Shown in pieces: positions 693 to 60,865 of a DNA stretch of 64,000 nt. A model generated the notes under the pieces. That model searched no databases, was not told the DNA's origin, and saw only the letters and a list, made by a program, of their open reading frames with translations. The stretch comes from Flavivirga eckloniae (GTDB lineage: Bacteria; Bacteroidota; Bacteroidia; Flavobacteriales; Flavobacteriaceae), in the NCBI RefSeq assembly GCF_002886045.1, contig NZ_CP025791.1:2433001-2497000 (forward strand), in the 5' to 3' direction. Within the stretch, counting starts at the first letter, position 1. Each line of letters begins with the position of its first letter. The translations under genes were made by a program, and so were the position numbers.

Positions 693-3600
693 TTAGTTTT
701 TATAGTTATACTTGTTCTCACTCATTAGATTACCGTCGGCATCTTTTACAAACTCGAGGCGATTAAATTCATCATAATCATAGTATGTGGTATAACCCTT
801 GGAATCCGTCAAACTGGTAACGCCTATTAACGGATCGTAGGTATAAGTAGTGACCATGGCATTTGGTAACGAATTTCTAAGATTTCTAAGAGCTTCTCTT
901 AAACTACCCTCTTTTCCAACTTTAGTAATTAATCCATTGGAATTAATAATATCAACGGTTCTATCATCATCAGCATTACTTAATGTTTGTAAATTAGAAA
1001 TAATTGAAGTACTTATAGCACTATAGTGTACACCATCTAGCTTTGCAATAGGATATTCACCTTTATAACCCCAGATATAGCATGTAGGGGCACCATTGGT
1101 CCTCTTAACTTCTAATATTTTACCCGTATTATTGTACTTTACAAATTCTATTCTATCTTCTAGATCATTGGTTCCCTTGCCTGTTTTTACAGACTTAGGT
1201 AGAATAACATTGTCCCAATTATTAAATACATTTGCCTTAGTAGTTAATAGGACATCATTCTTAAAGGTCTCTTGTTTGATTACAGGACTCAATATATTCT
1301 GTTCAACCATTTTATTATAGACTAAACTAGGAATACCTACACCTGTAGGCTTATCTGAAGGATATGAATTTAAAGTCTTTAATACTTCTCCCTTACTGTT
1401 GGTGGTATTAATTTCAGTTGGCAGTTTGTGTATTTCACTATGATAAATGTAATTTGTAACATTAGCTACAGGGTTATTACCGTTTACATCATAAATAGTA
1501 CCTTTTTCTTTGTCTAAATGCCACCATTCGGATCTGATATGGTAAGGTGCATAACCTATATAAGAAGAAGGAATATGATCTAGACTATTAGGAGGATTTA
1601 ATAAATCTCTGAAATAACCTATGTCTAAAATACCTACTTCTATGCTGATTTTAGATTGTTCTCTTTGAGAATATTTAAAACTTTTTTCTGAAACAAGCTT
1701 ACCGAGACTATTATAATGCTTTTCTTTTAATAATTGACCATTGCTATAAGGAGCAAAATACGGTACTCCTGAAAGATAAACTTCTTCCCTAACTACCGAA
1801 GGTTTATTATTATAAAAATATTCAGAAAAAAAGCTAGAACCTTCAACAGTACCTGTATGTGTAACTTTTACCTTGGAATAGCCTACAGGATTCCCTTGAG
1901 CAGAACTCCCCATAGCAACAACACTACCAGAAGTCCTAACAAGATAATTTTTACTAATTGTTATTGGCGGTAAATTAAGGGTGTTATACAATCTATAATT
2001 AGTACTATGATAATGATTGATGACTTTTGTCATCAAAAGACCAGTAGTTATACCTAGTTCATCATCATACGAATAGTTTTCTTCACTAATAAGACCAGAA
2101 GCGTCCTTGGTTTTTATTGTCTTAATTCTAACACCTGCACCTATTTTATCTGGGGAGCTTTTATCTATTTCTTCAGGTATTTTTCCAGGTTTATGGAAAT
2201 CGGGTGGTCCAGGTGGAAAATATTTAAATGGATCTAAATATTTTACTGTCATTGTAAGAGGTATTCTATCGTGTTCAGCATTGTTTACCCTCATTCTATA
2301 GAATCCTGCAGGTAGGGTGATTTCAACTTGTGTATAAAACCCTCCACTTTTCATCCTCTCTAAAGAATCAGGTTTAAAACTAATAATTTTTTTACCTGTA
2401 TGACTATTTTCCAATACAACTTCAATGTCGTCAAAAATGGAAAAATCATTAATGTTGTACCACGTTCCATTGCTAATATTTACATCTAAATGTACTTTCT
2501 GAATATGATATGGGGGAATATTAAATATCCAGAAGGTAGTCTGTTTACTTGAGGCTGGAGTGTCAGAACCGTAATCTGTCACAGATTTTGTAACACGTAA
2601 AGGATGCCCCCCATCAATTGCTCCTAATGTTTCGCCTAAATCATTTTCGAACTCATTAACTTCATATGTAAAATCTTTTTGGGCTCCAGTAGGGTATTTT
2701 ATACGCTCTAAAATAGCAGATTTTACATAGCTAGGATTTGAAAATCTATTTGCTCCTCCTAAATTCCTACCACCTCCTAATCTATTAGTACTAGGGATTA
2801 ACGTACGAACAGCATCTCTTTGTGCCCTAGGTTTATTATAGGTAAGGAAAGGGGTATTACTACCTAAGTATTCATCAATATTTAAACGCTCTCTGTTAGT
2901 AGTTAAAGTACTTAAGTTATTATTTGCTCCATTGAAAAACCCCCAATAATCTACCGAATAAGATCCTTTATCTGGCAATGCTGTTGTGTTGTAATAAAAC
3001 TCATAGGGAGGGAGTTCTGAGTTTCCTGATTTTTCTTGAACAGCATCTAACTTAAGTCTAAGATAATCATGCTCATTATCTGTTCCTAACTTCGACTGAT
3101 TAAAGTAACTATGCTGAAATTCAAATTCTTTTATCGTTTTAGAATTTAAGTTTGAATCTTTAATTGTTATATGAGACAATCTTTTCGGACCAATACTACT
3201 ACCATCAGCAACTCTCATATCCGCTCTATGAGAAGTTGAAAAGGAAGCTATTCCATTATTACAAATTATTTGTGATAAATAAACATCATAAGTTACCTGC
3301 TGACTTGCAAAATATTTTAGTTGCCCACCATCACCAACGGAACCATAAAGTTCATACAATTCTTGCCTATGAGAAACTTGACTTAAACTCGTAAAATGAC
3401 CTTCTTTGTAAAGAAATTTCATTTCATCACCTTCTGGTGTCAAAACTTTTGTGAGGTACCATGCCGTATCTATTAATTTATTTCCAAAAACAAGCCTATC
3501 GCTTGTAATAGGAACAAATCGTGATGACCCTGCATTCAGGGTTCTCTCAATAACGTTTAAATTTTTATTTCCTAAATAATATTTCCAACCATTACCATCG

Positions 3601-48532: not shown

Positions 48533-51307
48533 ATGAAAAGAATTTTAGTTTTTTTAGCAGTTCTTACTGCTACATTTTCGTATGCTCAAAGTACAGATTC
48601 TGTAGTTGGACAACTAACAGACAAAGAGTATAATAATGAGCCTTTAGCCTTTGCTAATATTTTAATAAAAGGCACGACTAAAGGAACAACTTCAGACTTT
48701 GACGGTCATTATGGCCTACAAGGCTTAGAGCCTGGAGCGTACACCTTAATATTTAGTTTTGTTGGGTACGAAACTCAAGAAATAAGTATTCAGGTTGTTG
48801 CCGGCAAAGTAACCGAGGTAAATGTACCAATGGGAGCAAGTGCTGCGGCTTTAAGTGAAATTGTAATTACTACCACTACTAAAAGAGAAAGCGAAACGGC
48901 TCTTTTACTTGAACAGAAGAAGGCTGTTGAAATAAAAACTGCGATAGGCGCTCAAGAGTTAAGTAAAAAAGCTGTATCTGATGCTGCTGCGGCTACTTTA
49001 AAGGTTACGGGAGTAAATAAAAAAGAAGGCTCTAGTAAAATTTATGTACGAGGCTTAGGAGACAGGTACAACACGACTACTCTTAATGGCCTACCACTCC
49101 CTTCTAACGATCCGAGAAACAAAAATATTGACTTATCATTATTTGGATCCGATATTATTGGAAGTGTTGGCATAGGAAAAGCTTTTTCTTCCTATATGTC
49201 ATCTGATGTATCTGGGGCAAACATTGATATTATAAGTAAAGAAACATCACAAAAATCTTTATTTAAGATAGGGTTTTCTTCTGGGGCAAATACTCAAACT
49301 ACTTTCGAGGATTTTAAAGAAATTGATGGTGCTAATTGGTTTGGTATCAACTCCAACACAAAACATAATGTGAGAAACTTATCAACTTATAGTTTTGATA
49401 ACAATTATACTCCTAATGACGGAAAAGCCAACCCTAATTTAGGACTCTCAATTAATTATGGTAAAAAGTTTACGTTATCTGACGAAAGCAGTTTAAGTAT
49501 CTTTTTAGTAGGTTCCTTTAGTAACAAATACACCTTTCAAGAAGGAGCTTCTGATGCTATTGTAGACATAAGCGATAGTGGTGTACTTAATGTAGGCTCT
49601 ATTTTTGACACTAAGACATATAATTATAACGCATCAAAAATGTTGATGGGTAATGTAGTTTACAAAATCAATCCAAATCACAAGTTAAGCTTTAACCATT
49701 TATTTGTACACTCCAATAATCAGAAGGTACAAGATTTTATTGGTACTACTAATGATGTAGGAAGAGATAATGATGACAACAGGCTAGTAAATGTATTATT
49801 ACAAACAGAAATTCAAAACAAACTTTTTGTAAACCAGCTACTATCAACTAATAAGTTTGGAGAATCCATAGATGTTAATGCTGCTTTAAGTTATAATGCT
49901 ATATTTAATGATGAACCCGACAGAAGAAAAAATACTTTCATTATAAATAATGACACAAACACTACAAGAATCTCTCAAAACGCAGTAAGAGATAATAGTA
50001 GATTTTACGGTAACTTATTTGAAAACAATATTGCTGGAAACCTAAGTTTTGTTAAGTATTTAGGAGATCGTCAAGAAAACAATGGAAAAATAACTTTAGG
50101 CTATGATGGAAGTATTTCGGACAGAAAATTCGATGGTATATATTTCGACCATAACTTTACCGATCCAAGGAATACTTTTTTAGACATAAATAATTTAGAC
50201 GCAACATTTAACCAAAGTAATTTAAATAGTGGTCTTTTTGGAATTGAAACTTCCAGAGGGAGAAACAGTAATGATGCAGAAACATACCTACCCCAACTAT
50301 ATGATGCCGAAAAAACAATACACGCAGGATATATAGATGCTGTATACAAGTTTAGCGATAAATTTACCGCAAATCTAGGGGTTCGAACTGAAGACGTAAA
50401 AATGAATGTAAAATGGGATACTAATATTAGCTTTCCTGGCTTTTCTAACAATAGTGAAATAGCATTAGATAAGCAATACATCTTACCCTCTCTTAATTTA
50501 AAATACGAGGTTAACGAAAAAATTAACTTAAGAGCATCTAGTAGTATTACATACACATACCCACAATTTAAAGAAATAGCACCTTTTACTTACGAAGGTA
50601 TTAACTTTCAAGAAAGTGGTAACCCAGCCCTGCTTCCATCAGACAACTATAATGGAGAACTTAAATTTGAGTTATTCCCTAATAAAAGCGAGTTAATTTC
50701 GGTTGGTTTATTTGGTAAGTTAATTCAAAATTCCATTAACCGTTTAGAAAGAAACTCTGCGGTAGAAAGAGATTTTACATTCGACAACTCTGGTGACGCT
50801 ACGGTATTCGGTGCCGAACTAGAAGGTAGATTAAGCATCTTATCTAAAGAATCCGAAGATGCAGAAAAGTCTCAAAACCTTACTTTTGGTGGTAACATCA
50901 CATTAATGAAAACTAAACTTGAATACAATACAGCTAACACTTTGTTTAACTATACAGGTGATAGTTCTGAGTTAGAAGGAGCTTCTCCTTTTACCTTAAA
51001 CGCAGATCTTTCATATAGATTTAGTGTGAATGATAAAGAAACCATTTCTACTTTAGTGTTCAATTATCAAAGTGACAAAGTTTATAGTATAGGTACAAAC
51101 TTTCAAGAAAATATTGTTGAAAAAGGAGTTCCTTTGTTAGACTTCGTTTTTAGCCATAAGTTCAATAAGAATTTAAGTGTAAAATTCAATGCTAAAAACT
51201 TATTGAATCCAAGTTTTGAAAGATATAGAGATATTCCTGAGAAACTTACAATGAATTCATACAAAAAAGGAACATCTATATCTGTTGGAATAAGCTACAA
51301 TCTATAA
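48533..51307 (+). CDS. TonB-dependent receptor of the putative phosphate regulon
   Basis: The 924-residue outer membrane receptor has a signal peptide (ATFSYAQ), a carboxypeptidase-regulatory-like domain (about 24-105), a plug (IYVRGLGDRYNTTTLNGLPLPSNDPRNKNIDLSLF, about 165-205) and a barrel ending in SVGISYNL. It is not a SusC type and has no SusD. A beta-helix lipoprotein follows, a pairing that recurs in Bacteroidota. The promoter carries phased Pho-like repeats, so import of a phosphorus compound under starvation is likely. The ligand itself is inferred from context. Confidence 0.9.
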   Translation: MKRILVFLAVLTATFSYAQSTDSVVGQLTDKEYNNEPLAFANILIKGTTKGTTSDFDGHYGLQGLEPGAYTLIFSFVGYETQEISIQVVAGKVTEVNVPMGASAAALSEIVITTTTKRESETALLLEQKKAVEIKTAIGAQELSKKAVSDAAAATLKVTGVNKKEGSSKIYVRGLGDRYNTTTLNGLPLPSNDPRNKNIDLSLFGSDIIGSVGIGKAFSSYMSSDVSGANIDIISKETSQKSLFKIGFSSGANTQTTFEDFKEIDGANWFGINSNTKHNVRNLSTYSFDNNYTPNDGKANPNLGLSINYGKKFTLSDESSLSIFLVGSFSNKYTFQEGASDAIVDISDSGVLNVGSIFDTKTYNYNASKMLMGNVVYKINPNHKLSFNHLFVHSNNQKVQDFIGTTNDVGRDNDDNRLVNVLLQTEIQNKLFVNQLLSTNKFGESIDVNAALSYNAIFNDEPDRRKNTFIINNDTNTTRISQNAVRDNSRFYGNLFENNIAGNLSFVKYLGDRQENNGKITLGYDGSISDRKFDGIYFDHNFTDPRNTFLDINNLDATFNQSNLNSGLFGIETSRGRNSNDAETYLPQLYDAEKTIHAGYIDAVYKFSDKFTANLGVRTEDVKMNVKWDTNISFPGFSNNSEIALDKQYILPSLNLKYEVNEKINLRASSSITYTYPQFKEIAPFTYEGINFQESGNPALLPSDNYNGELKFELFPNKSELISVGLFGKLIQNSINRLERNSAVERDFTFDNSGDATVFGAELEGRLSILSKESEDAEKSQNLTFGGNITLMKTKLEYNTANTLFNYTGDSSELEGASPFTLNADLSYRFSVNDKETISTLVFNYQSDKVYSIGTNFQENIVEKGVPLLDFVFSHKFNKNLSVKFNAKNLLNPSFERYRDIPEKLTMNSYKKGTSISVGISYNL

Positions 51308-51512: not shown

Positions 51513-52715
51513 ATGAAAACATTTAAAAACTTACTAATAGCCATTACAGTAATTTCAATTTTCTCTTGTTCATCTGATGATGATAACAGAACTATCGACC
51601 CGGGCAATGGAGGAGATAACCCTATTACTGGCAATGAATTAAAGGGCGATCTTTCTGAAGACGCTAAATTATTAGCTTCTGTAGAATACACATTAACAGG
51701 ATCGTTCACCGTTAAAAGTGGAGCTACTCTAACCATAGAGCCAGGTACAGTAATCAAAGCTAAAAGTGGTAGAACAGATATTTTCTTAGCTGTAGAAAGA
51801 GGAGCAAAAATCATTGCTAAGGGTACTGCTGCTAACCCTATCAAATTTACTTCAGATGCAAGTTCTCCTAAAGCTGGAGATTGGGGAGGAATTGTAATTG
51901 CTGGTAAAGCAAAAAGTAACAAAGGAACTGATGTACAATCTGAAGTTGCTGGTTTACTTTACGGAGGTAGCGATGACGCTGATAACTCTGGTGAATTAAG
52001 CTATATAATTGCTGAATATACTGGTGCTAAAATTAACGGAGAGCAAGAGTTTAACGGAATTTCTTTCTTCGGTGTTGGTAACGGAACTGTAGTAAACAAC
52101 ATAGTTGTAAGCAATGGTAACGATGATGGTATTGAATTCTTTGGAGGTAGCGTTAATGTAACTAATGTATATTGTGCAAATATTGCTGACGACATGTTCG
52201 ATTGGACAGGAGGTTATACTGGTACTATTACTAATGCATTTGGAGTTCGTAATGATGGTTTTGATGCTGCTACTGATGATCCGAGAGGTATTGAAGGAGA
52301 TAGCAACAGTTCTGATGCTAATGCTGCACCAATCTCTACACCAACTTTAAAAAATGTTACTATATTAAACCTTAACCCAGACGTTGCTCTTAAAGCTGGT
52401 GCTGAAATTAGAAGAGGTACTCAAGCGATCATAAGTAATATTTTATTTGCTGCTTACGGCAACGCTAGTTTTGGAAACAGAATAGATACCAAAGATGACA
52501 AAGGAAACGGAACTTTAACTATCTCTAATGCTTCTGCTCAAGGTAATGTAGGAGACGATAAAGTAGGTGGAGATATTACAGGTACTGTAACTGCAATTAC
52601 AGATGGCATTAGCGTTCCTTCTGACAATACAGTTAATACTAAAGCTGGTGTTGGTGCTGATTTATCAGCATTTGATTGGGCTAACCAAAGCTTTGTGGTT
52701 ACTAAATTAAACTAA
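51513..52715 (+). CDS. Beta-helix surface lipoprotein partnered with the TonB receptor
   Basis: The 400-residue lipoprotein has Cys19 (SIFSC) followed by SSDDDN, which matches the S-D-D-D-type export signal that places lipoproteins on the Flavobacteria surface. The rest has right-handed beta-helix repeats (GSFTVKSGATLTIEPGTVIKA, NGISFFGVGNGTVVNNIVVSNGNDDGIEFFGGSVNVTNVYCAN). Homologues are often misnamed multidrug transporters. Directly downstream of the TonB receptor and under the same kind of promoter, it likely captures the receptor's substrate at the cell surface. No catalytic site was recognised. Confidence 0.85.
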   Translation: MKTFKNLLIAITVISIFSCSSDDDNRTIDPGNGGDNPITGNELKGDLSEDAKLLASVEYTLTGSFTVKSGATLTIEPGTVIKAKSGRTDIFLAVERGAKIIAKGTAANPIKFTSDASSPKAGDWGGIVIAGKAKSNKGTDVQSEVAGLLYGGSDDADNSGELSYIIAEYTGAKINGEQEFNGISFFGVGNGTVVNNIVVSNGNDDGIEFFGGSVNVTNVYCANIADDMFDWTGGYTGTITNAFGVRNDGFDAATDDPRGIEGDSNSSDANAAPISTPTLKNVTILNLNPDVALKAGAEIRRGTQAIISNILFAAYGNASFGNRIDTKDDKGNGTLTISNASAQGNVGDDKVGGDITGTVTAITDGISVPSDNTVNTKAGVGADLSAFDWANQSFVVTKLN

Positions 52716-52911: not shown

Positions 52912-54675
52912 ATGAAAAGAACCTTTATTACATCCATGCTTGTCTTGTTCACTATTGGACTAAACGCTCAATCTTACAAAAGTCACACCTTCTATAGCAT
53001 CATCAAAGATCCAGGATCGAATACCTTTCAAGCGATCACCGAACAAATTGCTTTAGACAATTGCAATACAGTTTTTACCTCTCAACAATTAAGAGATAGA
53101 CAATATGTAAATATTCAAATTGAAGCCCCTTTATCTTCAGGTAGATTCTATTATTTAGATTTCGGTGACGGTTTAAAGTATTACTATCTTCTTAGATCAA
53201 GTTCAAATGAGCACAACGATGAGGACTATCGTCTTAGTCTTCCATATAATATAACTTCAGTTTGCACTCCTACAGATAGCGACGGAGACACTATACCAGA
53301 TAGAATCGATAATTGCCCAACAACACCAAACACTAATCAATTAGATACAGATAATGATGGTATTGGCGATGTTTGTGATACTGGTATATTAAGAAGCCAC
53401 ACTTTTTATTCTTTATTAAACGGAAGTACCATTACAGAACAAATAGCATTAAGTAATTGTGGTAAAACTTTTCCCTTATCTCAATTAGGTGGGCGAAATT
53501 ATGTAAATATTCAAATTGATACCCCACTAAAGTCTGGAAGATTTTATTACTTAAACTTTGGTAGAGGACTTAACTATTATTATTTGTGGCAATCTAATGC
53601 TGGCGAACACAATGATGAAGACTACAGAATTATAGCTCACCAAATAACTAATCCATGCCCAGAGCCAGACTTAGACGCCGTTCAAGTTTCCGTAAGTTCC
53701 ACCACTATAAATCACGGAGAAAATAAAACGGTAAACTATACAGTGAAAAATTTAGGGAACTCCATCGCCGCTTCATCAAAGGTTGAGTTTTACCTTTCCT
53801 CTACAACTACAAATTCTAGAGAATTTCTGAAAAGCAAGCCTATTGGTAATGTTAATATAAATCAAACTATAACCAGTTCAGCTACAATAAAAATACCTCT
53901 AGGAACTAAAACTGACACTTATAATATATTTATGAGAGTTTCAACAAATGGAGATTCAAATTCAGGTAATAACACAGTCTATTCCCCATCAAGTTTTAAG
54001 GTTAACGGTGTTCAAGAGTATCCTGATTTGGTTTTTGACACAGAAGTGATTACAGCGACCAGTGATTGCTCCAATTGTAGCTTTATTATAAAAGAATTAA
54101 TTAAAAATAACGAAAGGCACATTGCTAACAAAAATGGAATCGCTTTAAATTTCTTACAAATCAAAATAGATAATAAAGGAACAGTTAGTTCAACTCCCAC
54201 AAAAATAAAATATTACCTTTCATCGGATTCTAAATTAGACCCTAAAAAAGACTATGAATTTAAAGTTTCAACAGACGTCCCATCAATAAATAAAAATTCA
54301 TTCAAATCAGTTGCTAAAAGTTTAACAGGTTTAGACTTTAGAGATGCTAGGGTCTCTGGAGACAATAATACAGAACCTCCCTATGGAAATTACTTTTTTA
54401 TAATGAAAATAGACCCTAAAGATGAAAGTAACCAAGATAATAATGTTGTAAAATTCCTTATAAAATACAGGGAGAATTCCAGTAAGACTTCGCTTATAAG
54501 AAACACTCAAAATAGTTTAAAACCATATAAATTGGATATTTATGATTTTACCGGAAACATATTAAAATCAACCAAGGTAAACTCAACCGAACAAGAAAAC
54601 ACCATTATTAATTCCCTTCCTTCTGGCTTATACATCATAAAAACGCCAACTGGAACTAGAAAAATAACAAAGTAA
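52912..54675 (+). CDS. T9SS-secreted CARDB-domain protein with duplicated N-terminal module
   Basis: The 587-residue protein has a signal peptide (IGLNAQ). Two related modules share SHTFYS, ITEQIAL-NC, RxYVNIQI and SGRFYYLxFGxGLxYYYL-S (residues about 21-113 and 161-245). They are separated by thrombospondin type-3 repeats (DSDGDTIPDRIDNCPTTPN). Two CARDB-like Ig domains follow (about 250-520), then a T9SS type A sorting tail (LDIYDFTGNILKS...GLYIIKTPTGTRKITK). It has no enzyme motif. Its C-terminal half is nearly identical to that of the next gene. It probably acts outside the cell as a binding protein made on phosphate limitation. Confidence 0.8.
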   Translation: MKRTFITSMLVLFTIGLNAQSYKSHTFYSIIKDPGSNTFQAITEQIALDNCNTVFTSQQLRDRQYVNIQIEAPLSSGRFYYLDFGDGLKYYYLLRSSSNEHNDEDYRLSLPYNITSVCTPTDSDGDTIPDRIDNCPTTPNTNQLDTDNDGIGDVCDTGILRSHTFYSLLNGSTITEQIALSNCGKTFPLSQLGGRNYVNIQIDTPLKSGRFYYLNFGRGLNYYYLWQSNAGEHNDEDYRIIAHQITNPCPEPDLDAVQVSVSSTTINHGENKTVNYTVKNLGNSIAASSKVEFYLSSTTTNSREFLKSKPIGNVNINQTITSSATIKIPLGTKTDTYNIFMRVSTNGDSNSGNNTVYSPSSFKVNGVQEYPDLVFDTEVITATSDCSNCSFIIKELIKNNERHIANKNGIALNFLQIKIDNKGTVSSTPTKIKYYLSSDSKLDPKKDYEFKVSTDVPSINKNSFKSVAKSLTGLDFRDARVSGDNNTEPPYGNYFFIMKIDPKDESNQDNNVVKFLIKYRENSSKTSLIRNTQNSLKPYKLDIYDFTGNILKSTKVNSTEQENTIINSLPSGLYIIKTPTGTRKITK

Positions 54676-54873: not shown

Positions 54874-56502
54874 ATGAAAAAACTTACATTCCTAGTTCTC
54901 TTTACCATCTTTTCTATCAGTATAAACTCCCAAAATTATAAATTCAATGAATTTATGGACCTAGGAGTAACGATTGAAACAGCTATAAGAAGACATTGTA
55001 CAGGAACTACCCAAGGAGCATTAATTAAAACTAATTTGCCTAATATAATATTACCTAAAGAAAACATTTATCGTTTTGACTTAGGGCTCGGAAATGGCAT
55101 TAGGTATTATAAAGTAATTAATTCCGCTAACAGCCCTTCAAGTAATGCCACAAACATAAATACGCTACCGAATTTTGGGCAACCAATTTTGGATATTTGT
55201 AATTCATTGTCATGGAAGTATCATAGACCTATATTAATTGGTAGTACTGAATTAGAAGCAAAAAATAATTTTTGCTCTAAAAAAACAGTTAATAATATTA
55301 GAGAAAAAGTAAACATTAAAATTGAGAAACCTCTATTAGAAGGTGAAGTATATTTGATGAATTTTGGGTTAGGTAACAAGTACTACAAAATAATAGCATC
55401 AGATTATGCAAAAGGGGATTCAGATTATGATTTAGATACTACAAATAATAATGCTATTTTCTCTAAAGTATTTTTTAACTGCCCAACACCTCCAGACTTA
55501 AAAGCTGTTAAAGCTTCTGTAAGTTCTAGTTCAATAAATGCTGGATCAAATAAAACATTATCTTATGAAGTTAAGAATATAGGAGACTTAACGGCCACTT
55601 CAACACGTCTCGAGTTTCACATCTCCTCCACGACTACAAATTCTAGAGAATTTCTAGTAAGCAAATCTATTGGATCTGTTAATACAAATCAGACCATAAC
55701 GGGTTCAATTACAGCAAAAATACCTCTAGGAACTAAAACTGATACTTATAAAATATTTATGAAAGTTTCAACAAATGGAGATTCAAATTCAGGTAATAAC
55801 ACAGTCTATTCCTCATCAAGTTTTAAGGTTAACGGTGTTCAAGAGTATCCTGATTTGGTTTTTGATACAGGAGTTATTACAGCAACTAGTGATTGCTTCA
55901 ATTGTAGCTTTGCTATAAAAGAATTAATTAAAAATAACGAAAGACATATTGCTAACGAAAATGGAATCGCTTTAGATTTCTTACAAATCAAAATAGATAA
56001 TAAAGGAACAGTTAGTTCAACTCCCACAAAAATAAAATATTACCTTTCATCAGATTCTAAATTAGACCCTAAAAAAGACTATGAATTTAAAGTTTCAACA
56101 GACGTCCCATCAATAAATAAAAACTCATTCAAATCAGTTGCTAAAAGTTTAACAGGTTTAGACTTTAGAGATGCTAGGGTCTCTGGAGACAATAATACAG
56201 AACCTCCCTATGGAAATTACTTTTTTATAATGAAAATAGACCCTAAAGATGAAAGTAACCAAGATAATAATGTTGTAAAATTCCTTATAAAATACAGGGA
56301 GAATTCCAGCAAGATTTCGCTTACAAGAAACGCTCAAAATAGTTTAAAACCATCTAAATTGGATATTTATGATTTTACCGGAAACATATTAAAATCAACC
56401 AAGGTAAACTCAACCGAACAAGAAAACACGATTATTAATTCCCTTCCTTCCGGCTTATACATCATAAAAACGCCAACTGGAACTAGAAAAATAACGAAGT
56501 AA
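54874..56502 (+). CDS. T9SS-secreted CARDB-domain protein, paralogue of 52912
   Basis: The 542-residue protein has a signal peptide (ISINSQ) and two diverged N-terminal modules recognisable from YRFDLGLGNGIRYYKV and GEVYLMNFGLGNKYYKI. The CARDB region and T9SS tail (about residues 207-542) match those of the 52912 protein very closely, with a block of about 110 residues identical. It lacks the thrombospondin repeats. The N-terminal modules differ far more than the C-terminal half, so ligand specificity may differ while the secretion and scaffold part is shared. The duplicate includes the terminator. Confidence 0.8.
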   Translation: MKKLTFLVLFTIFSISINSQNYKFNEFMDLGVTIETAIRRHCTGTTQGALIKTNLPNIILPKENIYRFDLGLGNGIRYYKVINSANSPSSNATNINTLPNFGQPILDICNSLSWKYHRPILIGSTELEAKNNFCSKKTVNNIREKVNIKIEKPLLEGEVYLMNFGLGNKYYKIIASDYAKGDSDYDLDTTNNNAIFSKVFFNCPTPPDLKAVKASVSSSSINAGSNKTLSYEVKNIGDLTATSTRLEFHISSTTTNSREFLVSKSIGSVNTNQTITGSITAKIPLGTKTDTYKIFMKVSTNGDSNSGNNTVYSSSSFKVNGVQEYPDLVFDTGVITATSDCFNCSFAIKELIKNNERHIANENGIALDFLQIKIDNKGTVSSTPTKIKYYLSSDSKLDPKKDYEFKVSTDVPSINKNSFKSVAKSLTGLDFRDARVSGDNNTEPPYGNYFFIMKIDPKDESNQDNNVVKFLIKYRENSSKISLTRNAQNSLKPSKLDIYDFTGNILKSTKVNSTEQENTIINSLPSGLYIIKTPTGTRKITK

Positions 56503-56518
56503 AAAAACACAAAGCAAT

Positions 56519-56554
56519 AAAAAAGCATCCTAAAAAATTAGGATGCTTTTTTAT
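56519..56554 (+). terminator. Terminator of the second CARDB gene
   Basis: AAAAAAGCATCCTAA (56519-56533) and TTAGGATGCTTTTTT (56538-56552) form a 15-bp stem with an A4 loop. It is convergent with the 56572 gene and may serve both. Confidence 0.9.
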
Positions 56555-56571
56555 TTATTAGTTTTTCAAGT

Positions 56572-56925
56572 TTAAAGACCGTTGTTTTCTTTGGTTTCAG
56601 ATTCTTTTAAACCGGCTATAACATTAGCACTATAATCTACTTCTTTTATGGTTTGATTGTTCCAATAAAACCACTTGCCGACTTTCTTCCCATTATCATA
56701 ATTTGCAGAAACGATTTTTTTGCCTTCTTCATTAAAACTTAACCACTTACCGTGTAGTTTACCATCTGCTGTGTAAGTCCCTGTTTGGCTTACTACACCA
56801 TTGTCATGATAATAAACAACCTCGATTAAATTGGTTTCTTTATTATGTTTTAATTCTCTCTTTTGCTGAGCAAAAGTTACCACAGTAATTAAAAAGGCAA
56901 ATAAAAATAAAACTGATTTCTTCAT
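56572..56925 (-). CDS. Exported MORN-variant (YwqK-like) repeat protein
   Basis: The ATG at 56925 (MKKSVLFLFAFLITVVTFAQQ) starts a good signal peptide; the longer frame from 56955 would begin inside the promoter. The 117-residue protein has three MORN-variant repeats (YYHDNGVVSQTGTYTADGKLHGKWLSF, NEEGKKIVSANYDNGKKVGKWFYWN). Such proteins are often labelled YwqK-family antitoxins, but this exported form has no toxin neighbour, so that name should not imply a toxin-antitoxin role. Minus-strand TATATTTG at 56953-56960 is a good -7 element. Confidence 0.8.
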   Translation of the reverse strand: MKKSVLFLFAFLITVVTFAQQKRELKHNKETNLIEVVYYHDNGVVSQTGTYTADGKLHGKWLSFNEEGKKIVSANYDNGKKVGKWFYWNNQTIKEVDYSANVIAGLKESETKENNGL

Positions 56926-57078
56926 AATTATGGGGTTTTTAATATTATATATCAAATATACAAATAAGATAACATTAAATCAATACTTACATAACATTAA
57001 ATTAACATTAAGCCAATAAAACGTTGATTGTGAGGTATTTGATAATTAATATTTAACATTGGAAATCTTAATGATTAC

Positions 57079-57123
57079 TTAATGTTATCGTCACATTCAA
57101 GTTACTTTAAACTAAGAGTTTTG
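57079..57123 (+). promoter_or_regulatory. Candidate Pho-like promoter of a small RNA
   Basis: TTAATGTTATC (57079), GTCACATTCAA (57090) and GTTACTTTAAA (57101) lie in 11-bp register. TTTG at 57120-57123 begins exactly 30 bases after 57090, the spacing seen at the protein-gene promoters. The repeats are weaker matches (GTCAC instead of GTAAC). Confidence 0.45.
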
Positions 57124-57127
57124 CAAT

Positions 57128-57230
57128 GTCTTAAAGACACATTTAGTATTTCATTATAATCTATTAGTTTTTGTCGACTACATTATTATGATTTCTAATG
57201 AGGCTGCCTTGGCCAGGCAGCCTTTATTTA
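57128..57230 (+). ncRNA. Candidate phosphate-regulated small RNA complementary to porin mRNA
   Basis: A transcript of about 100 nt would start near 57128 and end at the hairpin of 57201-57223 followed by a T-rich tail. Bases 57162-57176 (TATTAGTTTTTGTCG) are perfectly complementary to 57287-57301 (CGACAAAAACTAATA), the leader of the porin gene just before its ATG at 57308. No convincing peptide is encoded. The start site, its expression and the pairing are all predictions; alternatively the two stretches pair within one long leader. Confidence 0.45.
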
Positions 57231-57235
57231 TTTTA
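57201..57235 (+). terminator. Strong hairpin terminator inside the divergent region
   Basis: AGGCTGCCT (57201-57209) and AGGCAGCCT (57215-57223) form a perfect, GC-rich 9-bp stem with loop TGGCC, and then TTATTTATTTT. No annotated gene reads into it from the left, so it needs a transcript that starts inside this region. Confidence 0.8.
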
Positions 57236-57238
57236 ATA

Positions 57239-57283
57239 TTAACCCTTAGTTAACATTAAGTTAACATTAGTATTGGTTCTTTG
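57239..57283 (+). promoter_or_regulatory. Pho-box-like promoter of the porin gene
   Basis: TTAACCCTTAG (57239), TTAACATTAAG (57250) and TTAACATTAG (57261) are in unbroken 11-bp register. The -7 element is GTTCTTTG (57276-57283), with TTTG 30 bases after the 57250 repeat. This is the clearest example in the window. Confidence 0.8.
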
Positions 57284-57307
57284 CAGCGACAAAAACTAAT
57301 ACTTACA

Positions 57308-58513
57308 ATGAAAATAAAACTTAGTACAATAGTTTTTACTATTGTAGCATTCTCGTACATTAACGCTCAAGAAATCAGCGACACTTCTTTTGGAAAAGGC
57401 TTAATAAACTTCACTGCAAAAGACAGTTCTTTTAGTGTAAAATTTGCTCCCCGTTTTCAAGTACGATCTGTATCGTCTTGGGATCATGATGGAGACAAAT
57501 ACGGAAGCCCAGAACATAATTTTATTGTTAGACGTGCACGTCTAAAATTTGATGGATTCGCTTACAGCCCTAAACTTAGATATAAAATAGAATTGGGACT
57601 TTCTAATAGAGATATTTCGGGCGCCAATCAATTTAACAGAAACACCCCTCGCTATATTCTGGACGCCGTAATAATGTGGCATTTTGCAAAAAACTGGGAA
57701 TTATGGGCCGGGCAAACAAAACTACCTGGTAATGTTGAACGTGTAGTATCCTCTGCTAATCTTCAATTAATAGATCGTTCTTTATTAAATAGCCGTTTTA
57801 ACATTGACCGTGATTTAGGAGTACAATTACGTCATAAAACCAAGCTAGGAAAAACCTTTTTAATGCGTGAGAAATTAGCAGTATCGCAGGGTGAAGGTCG
57901 TAATGTTACCGAAGGTAACGAAGGCGGTTTACAATATACAGCACGTTTGGAATTTTTACCATTCGGAGCATTTAAGTCTAAAGGAGATTACAGTCAATCT
58001 GATCTTAAACGTGAAGAAACTCCTAAATTAATGTTTGCATTTAACTATGATTTAAATCAAGATGCCGTAAAAACAAGAAGTGTTTTAGGAAGTTATATGC
58101 TTAGAAGTGATGGTTCTCTTTATGAAACCGATATAACCACTATCTTTGCAGATGCAATGTTTAAATACCAGGGGTTCTCATTAATGGCAGAATATGCTAA
58201 ACGTACAGCAGACGATCCTGTTGCTACTGAGATTGACGGCATAACAACTACGGGAGATATTGTTTTAACCGGTAGCGCTGTAAACCTTCAGGCTGGTTAT
58301 TTATTCAAAAGCAACTATGAAATCGCTGGTCGATTCACAACAACAGATTATGAAACTATTACAGGTAGACTTCCAGAGACGCAGTATACTTTAGGGGTTA
58401 ATAAATTTGTAGTAGGTCATAAATTAAAAGTACAAAGCGATTTGAGCTATACCACCATAGATGGTAATGAAGATAATATTACTTTTAGGTTAGGATTTGA
58501 TTTACATTTCTAA
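57308..58513 (+). CDS. OprO/OprP-type phosphate/polyphosphate-selective porin
   Basis: The start at 57308 (MKIKLSTIVFTIVAFSYINAQ) gives the signal peptide; an earlier in-frame ATG-like codon lies in the promoter. The 401-residue barrel protein fits the OprO/P family (FIVRRARLKFDGFAYSPKLRYKIELGLSN, WELWAGQTKLPGNVERVVSSANLQLIDRS, LRHKTKLGKTFLMREKLAVSQGEG, C-terminal FRLGFDLHF). Such porins let phosphate or polyphosphate cross the outer membrane. A clear Pho-like promoter and the PiT gene immediately downstream support this substrate. The family name alone does not prove phosphate specificity. Confidence 0.88.
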   Translation: MKIKLSTIVFTIVAFSYINAQEISDTSFGKGLINFTAKDSSFSVKFAPRFQVRSVSSWDHDGDKYGSPEHNFIVRRARLKFDGFAYSPKLRYKIELGLSNRDISGANQFNRNTPRYILDAVIMWHFAKNWELWAGQTKLPGNVERVVSSANLQLIDRSLLNSRFNIDRDLGVQLRHKTKLGKTFLMREKLAVSQGEGRNVTEGNEGGLQYTARLEFLPFGAFKSKGDYSQSDLKREETPKLMFAFNYDLNQDAVKTRSVLGSYMLRSDGSLYETDITTIFADAMFKYQGFSLMAEYAKRTADDPVATEIDGITTTGDIVLTGSAVNLQAGYLFKSNYEIAGRFTTTDYETITGRLPETQYTLGVNKFVVGHKLKVQSDLSYTTIDGNEDNITFRLGFDLHF

Positions 58514-58582: not shown

Positions 58583-60865
58583 ATGGACAACATTTATTTA
58601 TTAATGCTCATTGCCATTACAGTTTTAGCGATTGCTGATATTGTAGTTGGTGTAAGTAACGATGCTATTAATTTCTTAAACTCTGCTATTGGTTCTAAAG
58701 CTATTTCTATGCGAACCATAATGATTGTTGCAAGTTTAGGTATATTTATTGGGGCAGTATTTTCAAGTGGAATGATGGAGGTTGCACGTAAAGGGATTTT
58801 CGTGCCTGCTATGTTCAATTTTGAAGAAATCATGTATATCTTCATGGCAGTAATGATTACCGATATATTACTGTTAGATTTCTTTAATACCTTAGGATTA
58901 CCTACTTCTACAACAGTTTCAATTGTATTCAACTTATTGGGTGCTGCTGTAGTTATGTCATTAATAAAAATTAGTGCATCAGACTCTCAAACTTTTGCCG
59001 ATTTAGGAAATTACATAAATACCAAGAAAGCATTTGAAATTATTCGGGGTATTATCATGTCTGTATTTATTGCTTTTTCAGTTGGTGCTTTAGTACAATG
59101 GGTCTCTCGTTTAGTTTTTACATTCCATTATGAGAAAAAAATAAAAAATTTCGGTGCTATATTTGGCGGTATATCTTTAGCTGCGATTACCTATTTTATC
59201 TTCTTAAAAGGATTAAAAGGAACACCTTATTACAAAGATCTTAAAGGAGTTCTTGAGGGGAACGAATTACTTATTATAATTGGTAGCATTGTTTTTTGGA
59301 CGCTGTTCTCTTTTGCATTCCAAAAAGTATTTAAAAAAACTATTTTATTGGTAGTCATTGCTATAGGAACTTTTGGTTTAGCACTAGCATTTTCTGGTAA
59401 TGATTTGGTAAACTTTATTGGAGTACCAATGGCCGCTTACCATTCTTATGAAGCATGGTCTGTTTCTGGTGTTGATGCAGCAATGTTCTCAATGGAAGTA
59501 CTTGACAAAAAAGTACCTGCCGAACCATTACTACTATTTATAGCTGGAGGCGTTATGGTATTAACCTTATGGCTTTCTAAAAAAGCAAAAACAGTTGCCG
59601 AAACCGAAATAAGTTTATCTCGTCAGGGAGAAACTCATGAAAAATTTGAGCCAAATATGTTATCCAGAGGTATTGTAAAAGGTTCTACGCTATTATCAGA
59701 TTTATTTGGAAAAATTGTACCCGAAGAGACCCAAGAAAAAATAGGTAAAAGCTTTGAAAAACCAGATGTGGTATTAACAAAAGACCAAAGTATAGATGCT
59801 CCTGCTTTCGATATGATCAGAGCTTCTGTAAACTTAATGGTTGCTGGGGTTTTAATTGCTATTGCAACATCTATGAAATTGCCTTTATCTACAACCTATG
59901 TAACATTTATGGTAGCCATGGGTACATCATTTGCAGATCGTGCCTGGGGTAGAGAAAGTGCTGTTTACAGAGTTGCTGGTGTACTAAATGTAATCGGTGG
60001 ATGGTTTGGTACTGCTATAGGCGCTTTTATAGCTGCTGGAACAGTTGTATTTTTAATTAAATGGAATCCTAGTGCCATGACACCTATTTTGCTGTTATTA
60101 ACTATTATTCTGTTGGTTAGAAATTACTTATCACACAAAAAAGGCTCTAAAAAAGTTGTAACCGAAGACAGTTTAATACATGCCGAAAGTAGCTCTATTC
60201 AAGGTGTTATTAACGAAAGTGCAAACAATATAGCTAATGTTGTTAAACGTGGTAACAAAATTTATTCTAGTGCTATTGATGGTTTATCAAAAGAAGACTT
60301 AGTCTTATTGAAAAAGAACAAGAAAAATATAGTTAAGCTCTCTGATGAAATTGATGAATTGCGCGACAATATTTTCTACTTCATTAAAAATTTAGACGAG
60401 TCCAGTTTAGGGGCTAGTAATTTCTACATTAACATATTAGGTTACTTACAAGACATGACACAATCGTTAGAATATATTTCTAAAGTAAGTCATAAGCACG
60501 TAAACAATAACCACAAAAAGCTTAAATTCAACCAGATTAAAGAGCTTAAACAAGTAGAAGAAGCGCTACGGTTATTATTTAACACAACCAAAGATGCTTT
60601 CGATTCTCAGTCTTTTGAGCAAATCGGTAGTATTATAAACGGCAAAAAAGAAGTCTTTGATCTAGTTACTGAGAAAATACAAAAACAAGTAGAACGTACC
60701 AGAACTGAAGAATCTAGTCCAAAAAACACAACTTTATATTTTAGTCTTCTTTTAGAAACAAAGGATTTATTAACTGCAACCATGAATTTATTAGAAGAAT
60801 ATCATAATGCTCATGATAAATCTGTTGAAGCTGCTACTATTGTAAGCAACTTAGAAGAAGAATAG
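58583..60865 (+). CDS. PiT-family inorganic phosphate transporter with PhoU-like C-terminal domain
   Basis: The 760-residue protein has two PiT signature halves (VGVSNDAINFLNSAIGSKAIS with FNTLGLPTSTTVSIVFNLLGAAVV, and FDMIRASVNLMVAGVLIAIATSMKLPLSTTYVTFMVAMGTSFADRAWGRE). It has 10-12 membrane segments. The C-terminal 200 residues are helical and PhoU-like (SIQGVINESANNIANVVKRGNKIYSSAIDGLSKEDL onward). It transports phosphate with cations across the inner membrane; the PhoU-like part likely regulates transport or signals phosphate status. It is downstream of the porin but has its own phased promoter. Confidence 0.93.
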   Translation: MDNIYLLMLIAITVLAIADIVVGVSNDAINFLNSAIGSKAISMRTIMIVASLGIFIGAVFSSGMMEVARKGIFVPAMFNFEEIMYIFMAVMITDILLLDFFNTLGLPTSTTVSIVFNLLGAAVVMSLIKISASDSQTFADLGNYINTKKAFEIIRGIIMSVFIAFSVGALVQWVSRLVFTFHYEKKIKNFGAIFGGISLAAITYFIFLKGLKGTPYYKDLKGVLEGNELLIIIGSIVFWTLFSFAFQKVFKKTILLVVIAIGTFGLALAFSGNDLVNFIGVPMAAYHSYEAWSVSGVDAAMFSMEVLDKKVPAEPLLLFIAGGVMVLTLWLSKKAKTVAETEISLSRQGETHEKFEPNMLSRGIVKGSTLLSDLFGKIVPEETQEKIGKSFEKPDVVLTKDQSIDAPAFDMIRASVNLMVAGVLIAIATSMKLPLSTTYVTFMVAMGTSFADRAWGRESAVYRVAGVLNVIGGWFGTAIGAFIAAGTVVFLIKWNPSAMTPILLLLTIILLVRNYLSHKKGSKKVVTEDSLIHAESSSIQGVINESANNIANVVKRGNKIYSSAIDGLSKEDLVLLKKNKKNIVKLSDEIDELRDNIFYFIKNLDESSLGASNFYINILGYLQDMTQSLEYISKVSHKHVNNNHKKLKFNQIKELKQVEEALRLLFNTTKDAFDSQSFEQIGSIINGKKEVFDLVTEKIQKQVERTRTEESSPKNTTLYFSLLLETKDLLTATMNLLEEYHNAHDKSVEAATIVSNLEEE

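Follow-up and report, generated by a model that had tools for sequence, protein, structure and literature searches.

A predicted small RNA gene upstream of a Porin_O_P gene in the Flavobacteriaceae co-evolves with the porin mRNA leader

The window, by which we mean the whole 64,000-nucleotide stretch of Flavivirga eckloniae DNA analysed here, belongs to a genome of 5.67 Mb assembled as a single contig. At the locus under study, a MORN-like gene on the minus strand is followed by an intergenic region, a Porin_O_P gene and a PHO4 transporter gene, with the following features.

56572..56925, minus strand: divergent gene for a MORN-repeat-like protein, a conserved neighbour (PF07661 match below the curated cut-off)
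57068..57111, plus strand: four 11-bp phased repeats, TTAATGATTAC TTAATGTTATC GTCACATTCAA GTTACTTTAAA, inferred from repeat geometry to be a PhoB-type operator of the sRNA gene
57120..57123, plus strand: TTTG, putative -7 element of the sRNA promoter (Bacteroidota-type; motif match)
57128..57230, plus strand: predicted sRNA gene of ~100 nt (covariance model and fold; ends predicted, not mapped)
57128..57138, plus strand: 5' hairpin of the sRNA, GUCUUAAAGAC (fold; covaries in relatives as helix 1)
57143..57198, plus strand: central imperfect hairpin of the sRNA, which bears the antisense seed (fold; helices 2 and 3 covary)
57162..57176, plus strand: antisense seed TATTAGTTTTTGTCG, exact complement of the porin leader (supported by pairing tests)
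57165-57169/57176-57180, plus strand: inner stem of the central hairpin (helix 4), mostly invariant
57170-57175, plus strand: apical loop UUUGUC of the central hairpin in the window's own fold
57200..57224, plus strand: predicted intrinsic terminator of the sRNA (helix 5 covaries)
57249..57270, plus strand: two 11-bp direct repeats, GTTAACATTAA GTTAACATTAG, inferred from repeat geometry to be a PhoB-type porin operator
57280..57283, plus strand: TTTG, putative -7 element of the porin promoter (motif match; conserved spacing)
57287..57301, plus strand: target CGACAAAAACTAATA, predicted first 15 nt of the porin mRNA (exact complement of the seed; conserved; supported by pairing tests)
57308..58513, plus strand: Porin_O_P gene (PF07396, phosphate-selective porin family; domain match), the putative target gene
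58583..60865, plus strand: PHO4/Pit-type phosphate transporter gene (PF01384; domain match), a conserved neighbour

The seed and the target are exact reverse complements over 15 nt, and the target stops 6 bases before the porin ATG at 57308, both as the original prediction had it. Within the window's genome the 15-mer occurs three times, as the seed, as the target, and inside a coding sequence named SCO1-like by inspection, where it was taken as chance and set aside as a target. When positions 56936-57307 were shuffled with dinucleotides preserved, an inverted repeat of 15 or longer arose in 2 of 3000 shuffles. The sRNA lies on the strand of the porin gene, ~60 bp ahead of where the porin mRNA is predicted to begin. 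The -7 element of Bacteroidota-type promoters is TTTG; the copy expected at 57120 is in place, and in 103 of 129 loci a copy precedes the RNA core by 30-75 nt. In the porin promoters, TTTG precedes GAC by 4 or 5 nt in 109 of 113 loci, so that the target probably constitutes the first transcribed nucleotides of the porin mRNA.

On comparative evidence, positions 57128-57230 are a conserved RNA gene. Folded as a single sequence, the window's RNA is predicted to reach -27.3 kcal/mol (z -4.2), forming a 5' hairpin, a long imperfect hairpin that holds the seed, and a terminator. Across 90 model-aligned copies, 87.9% of cells were paired and 24 of the 28 base pairs had double-sided changes, as expected of a conserved structure, with 383 doubly changed cells against 130 after shuffling and 49-92 when the alignment was slid by 1-3 columns. 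Four of the five helices covary throughout, while the innermost, which holds the seed, hardly varies (double changes in one of its five pairs, the remaining pairs varying on one side only). In helix 5 of the terminator, 98.3% of cells are paired and all six pairs show double changes. A GC-rich hairpin terminator had been predicted at 57201-57223; it is confirmed, at 57200-57224, and the covariation in related genomes that had been proposed as a check is seen in the terminator and in most hairpin stems. The pairing and covariation counts lean towards the structure, because the alignment was fitted to it, and since the full structure was taken from the window's own fold, the shuffle control is inflated by relatedness; sliding the alignment gives the fairer control. 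Row L121 + of the 90 is probably a spurious match and was retained. RNAalifold, applied to a MAFFT alignment, recovered the apical stem and the terminator only. With no alignment at all, a stem of at least 5 bp formed around the seed core in 126 of 127 singly folded 61-nt pieces, without a shuffled control, and the central part, folded singly, outperformed its shuffles by a small margin only (median z of -1.3, with 86 of 127 below -1). The most constant parts of the oriented alignment are the seed, the terminator and the target. A search of 56500-57600 against Rfam 15, up to E = 10, returned no family at its gathering score; a MicC match over the sRNA was sub-threshold (24.4 versus 90 bits) and was dismissed. 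That the RNA is an independent transcription unit is inferred from a predicted and conserved promoter and terminator, in the absence of RNA data.

A covariance model (R1), built from 21 sequences, matched in 148 of the 349 genomes of the window's family and in 111 of its 237 genera. DNA similarity to 57040-57310 was found in 24 of 60 genomes searched, the window's own included, and in 11 of 12 within the genus. An order-wide draw of 296 genomes, which overlaps the family set, gave 10 sRNA matches, 9 of them inside the family; none of the 10 fell in the genus g146, presumably Flavobacterium, represented in that draw by at least 13 genomes. An exact pattern of 23 fixed bases retrieved at least 118 stretches from public records, the matches listed including Algibacter, Lacinutrix, Tamlana, Olleya, Formosa, Maribacter, Arenibacter and others. 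Not all 148 R1-positive genomes were fetched, and locus tallies count 129 sRNA loci. There were 63 genomes with the porin and no R1 match; 31 of these were looked at, and the sRNA was recognized by eye in 5 and not seen in 26. From the other 32, G018 was seen as locus L023 and 31 remained outside the counts. One locus fetched with the R1-negative set, L218, was R1-positive at 9e-4.

Some individual copies deserve mention. The tenth match of the order-wide draw (L348, G616) comes from a genome that is 64% complete and assigned to another family, carries the rare GTTTTAGTC core and is closely similar to G184 at this locus; a misplaced genome or a transfer is possible. Genome G174 has two sRNA copies 117 kb apart (L103, L104), one with a full porin gene and the other with only the signal-peptide start of a porin ahead of an HD-domain gene. 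In L182 (G155:C107, ~1450-1630, minus strand), the sRNA and the porin leader share a perfect palindrome of 33 nt, against the usual ~15, a pattern suggesting that the porin promoter was copied into the RNA by template switching or through an error in assembly; a second copy in G155, on contig C108 (L140), is without it.

To score co-evolution, the longest pairing between RNA loop and leader was determined for each genome, with G-U pairs allowed. Three loci that repeat others (L074, L075 and L086, repeats of L012, L015 and L016) and one with a porin start mis-set by the ORF caller (L017) were dropped before counting, and L182 was excluded from the pairing test for its extended palindrome. In 126 genomes, the RNA paired with its own leader over a mean of 14.16 bp, compared with 12.80 bp for permuted leaders, a value reached in none of 20,000 permutations. 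Five of these pairs had been noticed through the complementarity itself (L188, L197, L200, L207 and L212) and L218 had come along with them; without these six the means were 14.14 and 12.92 (120 pairs, 0 of 20,000). To limit relatedness, the test was also run with one pair per porin cluster, which never included those six. With 58 clusters at 75% identity the means were 14.07 and 12.76, and with 12 clusters at 62% identity 13.50 and 11.14 (0 of 50,000 permutations in each); in the former, the own leader scored above the mean of the others in 45 clusters and did not in 13. Among 46 seeds that depart from the consensus, pairing with the own leader was longer than with the consensus leader in 29, equal in 9 and worse in 8.

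The near-invariant core itself has changed on both sides, from GTTTTTGTC/GACAAAAAC to GTTTTAGTC/GACTAAAA. Loci L170 and L173 combine GTTTTAGTC with GACTAAAAC, a double-sided change in an otherwise fixed core, and L141 and L151 have the same core change with the leader GACTAAAAT (a G-U pair) and a different target gene. Elsewhere, TTACAG pairs with CTGTAA (L188), TCTTTG with CAAAGA (L212), TCAG with CTGA (L107), and CGTAAAG with CTTTAACG with one base bulged (L181). The core is kept in 112 of 127 leaders that accompany an sRNA (107 of 121 without the six pairs from the complementarity search), and in 4 of 26 porin leaders with no visible sRNA beside them. Loss of complementarity in relatives would have refuted the original prediction; overall the opposite is seen, complementarity being kept and co-evolving. 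Judged by these comparisons, the pairing of sRNA and leader is under selection, and a seed complementary to a target near the start codon is maintained by compensatory change. Because the matching stretches changed together in evolution, the RNA very probably controls the amount of porin, a regulatory effect that is inferred.

In several genomes the locus has been rearranged. Behind the leader of G340, G143 and G104 (L183, L185, L186) lies a different Porin_O_P, which the window's porin did not find at 1e-30, with RNA and target kept. The RNA and a GACAAAAA leader stand directly upstream of an unrelated outer-membrane barrel gene in G301 (L169) and ~230 nt upstream of one in G080 (L136). Both barrel genes are followed by a gene for a phosphate-binding-type protein (PF12849), and in G080 also by a BPD_transp_1 permease gene. 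The RNA of G334 (L165) is ~3 kb from the porin gene, with two opposite-strand genes in between, one for a sulfate-permease-family protein and one for a carbonic anhydrase; the leader has GACAAAAACTAAA and still pairs. By visual inspection, G339 retains no more than a porin-like start, with a mutated target core (GAAAAAAAC). Finally, the sRNA lies beside PHO4 with no adjacent porin gene in G025, G140, G154 and G194 (L026/L062, L095, L178, L184); in G025 and G154 a weaker porin match lies at another place in the genome. Since the sRNA was kept without an adjacent porin in these four genomes, it may have other targets or be decaying there.

PhoB sites have the geometry of 11-bp direct repeats. 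A consensus of 7+4 bp is given in the accessible part of one report (PMC2573895). The phased array predicted to begin at 57079 is present and starts earlier, with four 11-bp units spanning 57068-57111, one more than had been noted. Lag-11 identity was 12.3 of 19 in porin promoters (113 loci) versus 8.4 in single-base shuffles, and 12.0 of 19 in sRNA promoters (116 loci) versus 9.3. Period 11 gave the largest excess in both sets, in keeping with the 11-bp phasing of Pho-regulon repeats; smaller excesses occurred at lag 7 (9.1 porin, 10.4 sRNA) and, for porin promoters only, at lag 10 (9.3), and all other lags were near or under background. A generic Pho-box pattern matched seven times in the window's genome with at most one mismatch, three times in the porin cluster; behind the other four matches, no recognizable phosphate genes were seen by eye. 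The best PhoB candidate of this genome scored 217.8 bits, below the curated cut-off of 296.2. Control of the sRNA and of the porin by PhoB is thus an inference from repeat geometry and neighbours, and phosphate responsiveness of the sRNA, while supported by the PhoB-type 11-bp repeats and the neighbouring phosphate genes, has not been shown as induction.

The wider cluster in the window, with a TonB-dependent receptor gene at 48533, a lipoprotein gene at 51513, a CARDB protein gene at 54874 and a gene for a similar protein at 52912, resembles the PhoBR cluster of F. johnsoniae. In the part of the published account available (PMC8115612), the receptor and lipoproteins of that cluster are strongly induced on phosphate depletion, and its OprP gene shows no phosphate induction. 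The latter counts against phosphate control, but that genus may lack the sRNA. The MORN-like gene, which accompanies the sRNA in 101 of 129 fetched stretches, has a Pho-like repeat of its own ahead of it (56991-57009), and the same Pho-type motif also precedes the lipoprotein gene at 51513. The tandem genes at 52912-54675 and 54874-56502 encode secreted proteins with near-identical C-terminal halves, the second with CARDB and secretion-tail domains; by sequence, this pair is a recent tandem duplication within a phosphate-type cluster.

The explanation that we favour, and consider probable though not secure, is that a dedicated, co-regulated sRNA pairs with the 5' end of the porin mRNA and most likely blocks its translation; this rests on inference for transcription, for control by PhoB and for the sign of the effect. 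The base-pairing sRNA would be encoded immediately ahead of the porin gene under its control, in the same orientation. As both promoters have 11-bp-phased PhoB-type repeats, both genes are probably induced by starvation, and a shortage of phosphate would switch on sRNA and porin alike. The apical loop (UUUGUC in the window's fold) would then meet GACAAAA at the extreme 5' end of the porin mRNA, and pairing would extend into the 5' arm of the hairpin, to 11-16 bp in most genomes. The pairing of loop and leader is supported by co-evolution, and the order of events is inferred. Bacteroidota initiate translation without strong Shine-Dalgarno pairing. In such a phylum, a duplex covering the leader to a few bases before the start codon would most likely block loading of the 30S subunit and lower porin synthesis. 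Repression is favoured by analogy with FopS, which, as far as the available text of the source goes (PMC11697453), represses translation by binding the start region of susC, with a block on susC in vitro. Having the sRNA and the porin under the same operator type would amount to an incoherent feed-forward loop, which may cap or delay the outer-membrane pore. Action of the sRNA would need to be independent of Hfq, since neither Hfq nor an RRM protein of the RbpB type was found in the window's genome.

The same sRNA and the same pairing could instead activate, with the duplex shielding the mRNA 5' end from degradation and boosting porin in phosphate starvation. The duplex does start at the predicted first transcribed base, as judged from the TTTG spacing in the 109 of 113 loci, and the operators of both genes, which appear to be of one kind, suit co-activation; however, pairing reaches to a few bases from the start codon (6 in the window), and the FopS sRNAs of Bacteroides, whose binding site is the start region of susC mRNAs for outer-membrane proteins, act as repressors according to the portion of the report at hand (PMC11697453). 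We consider activation unlikely, without dismissing it. The original prediction had left room for a leader switch in cis, in which a long transcript from 57128 would read through the terminator and the two stretches would pair within one RNA and gate the porin. Although a 213-nt transcript folds with both stretches paired (z -6.0), and RNA and porin start lie close together in most loci, the terminator stem covaries (98.3% of cells pair), the porin's own TTTG promoter and operator sit between the two stretches, and the leader of L165 pairs across ~3 kb with genes on the opposite strand. Because the pair survives replacement of the porin and the 3-kb insertion, a separate RNA is preferred, and a leader switch appears very improbable. 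Inverted repeats are known to flank promoters ahead of some outer-membrane genes in Bacteroidota, which lends some background to an invertible promoter with the 15-bp repeats as recombination sites on either side of the porin promoter. With one genome per species, neither the 129 sRNA loci nor 32 additional porin loci, of which 26 are without a visible sRNA, showed the flipped segment. The former had been collected through matches to the RNA or the region, and so the sample disfavours flipped loci; but species differences in the repeats also track the RNA pairing, and covariation is seen in RNA helices that lie outside them. We give inversion almost no credence.

A further proposal, compatible with translational repression of the porin by the sRNA, is that this is a phosphate sRNA of wider reach, which has imperfect targets besides the porin. 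The RNA has been kept without an adjacent porin in G025, G140, G154 and G194, and a target-bearing leader precedes an unrelated barrel in L169 and lies ~230 nt from one in L136. In the opposite direction, GACAAAAACTAAT is rare outside the sRNA and the porin leader in 26 genomes, a search that did not cover imperfect targets, and TTTGCAGCGACAAAAA occurs once each in nine Flavivirga genomes, among the matches listed, and is absent from G010, which is without the sRNA. No second conserved target emerged: 13-mer matches in 26 genomes included no other site seen to be shared across the genus, and promoter-phased GACAAAAA in 20 genomes gave no other genus-wide site among the matches listed. A similar intergenic stretch with CGACAAAAACTAATA lies near a 110-aa ORF in L068 (1066-1078) and L063 (1355-1367); found in 2 of the 12 genus genomes only, it is a possible minor second target. 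A broader role for the sRNA stays a tentative suggestion.

The evidence may be read further, to suggest that a Pho-box-controlled, Hfq-independent sRNA gene just upstream of its target governs a single porin, and that RNA and leader form a transferable control cassette, with the RNA in at least 111 genera, which co-evolves base by base and is kept when the porin is exchanged for another porin or for a barrel beside a phosphate-binding-protein gene. We see the case for this fuller account as evenly balanced. If true, it would describe the first phosphate-linked sRNA in Bacteroidota, as far as the literature searched shows; no description of the window sRNA was found there. Bacteroidota sRNAs with a known target are few, and target finding is the bottleneck. 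In this large and mostly marine family, co-evolution by itself is enough to identify the target, with a resolution of single base pairs. Species in which seed and leader have changed jointly are ready-made test pairs for sRNA action without Hfq and without strong Shine-Dalgarno initiation, and the sRNA would add a post-transcriptional layer to phosphate uptake by marine heterotrophs.

Enterobacterial porin sRNAs of the MicF/MicC type are stress-regulated and pair with the 5' region of porin mRNAs, as the window sRNA is proposed to do, but they depend on Hfq and their targets lie at a distance, elsewhere in the genome. Other parallels are FopS and GibS of B. thetaiotaomicron, a member of the Bacteroidota without Hfq; these are short RNAs that, to the extent that the sources were accessible (PMC11697453, PMC7366714), bind by base pairing to the start regions of mRNAs encoding an outer-membrane transporter (SusC) or enzymes. 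According to the same partial sources, FopS and GibS act on several targets spread over the genome, and GibS carries its seed in a 5' part that is largely single-stranded, whereas the window sRNA adjoins its one clear target and has its seed in a hairpin loop. Unlike FopS and GibS, the window sRNA also has a PhoB-type operator, and no RRM (RbpB-type) protein was found in its genome. DonS-type antisense RNAs of Bacteroides are likewise encoded at an outer-membrane porin locus, and DonS lowers porin; DonS, however, is described in the available part of the report as cis-antisense to susC (PMC7366714), while the window RNA shares the strand of the porin gene, lies upstream of it and matches it only by way of a separate repeat. 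With no opposite-strand overlap, and with the sRNA ~60 bp ahead of the predicted mRNA start, a DonS-type cis-antisense RNA was rejected. Rfp18 of Flavobacterium psychrophilum is an sRNA from the same bacterial family, but in the text available it targets protease mRNAs through its third stem-loop (PMC9723704). No known RNA family was found for the window sRNA, and no sequence comparison was made with FopS/GibS or Rfp18. On balance, the predicted sRNA works like known porin-controlling sRNAs, its regulatory effect being inferred, and it is unusual in its tandem position beside the target, its loop-borne seed and its base-by-base co-evolution across the family.
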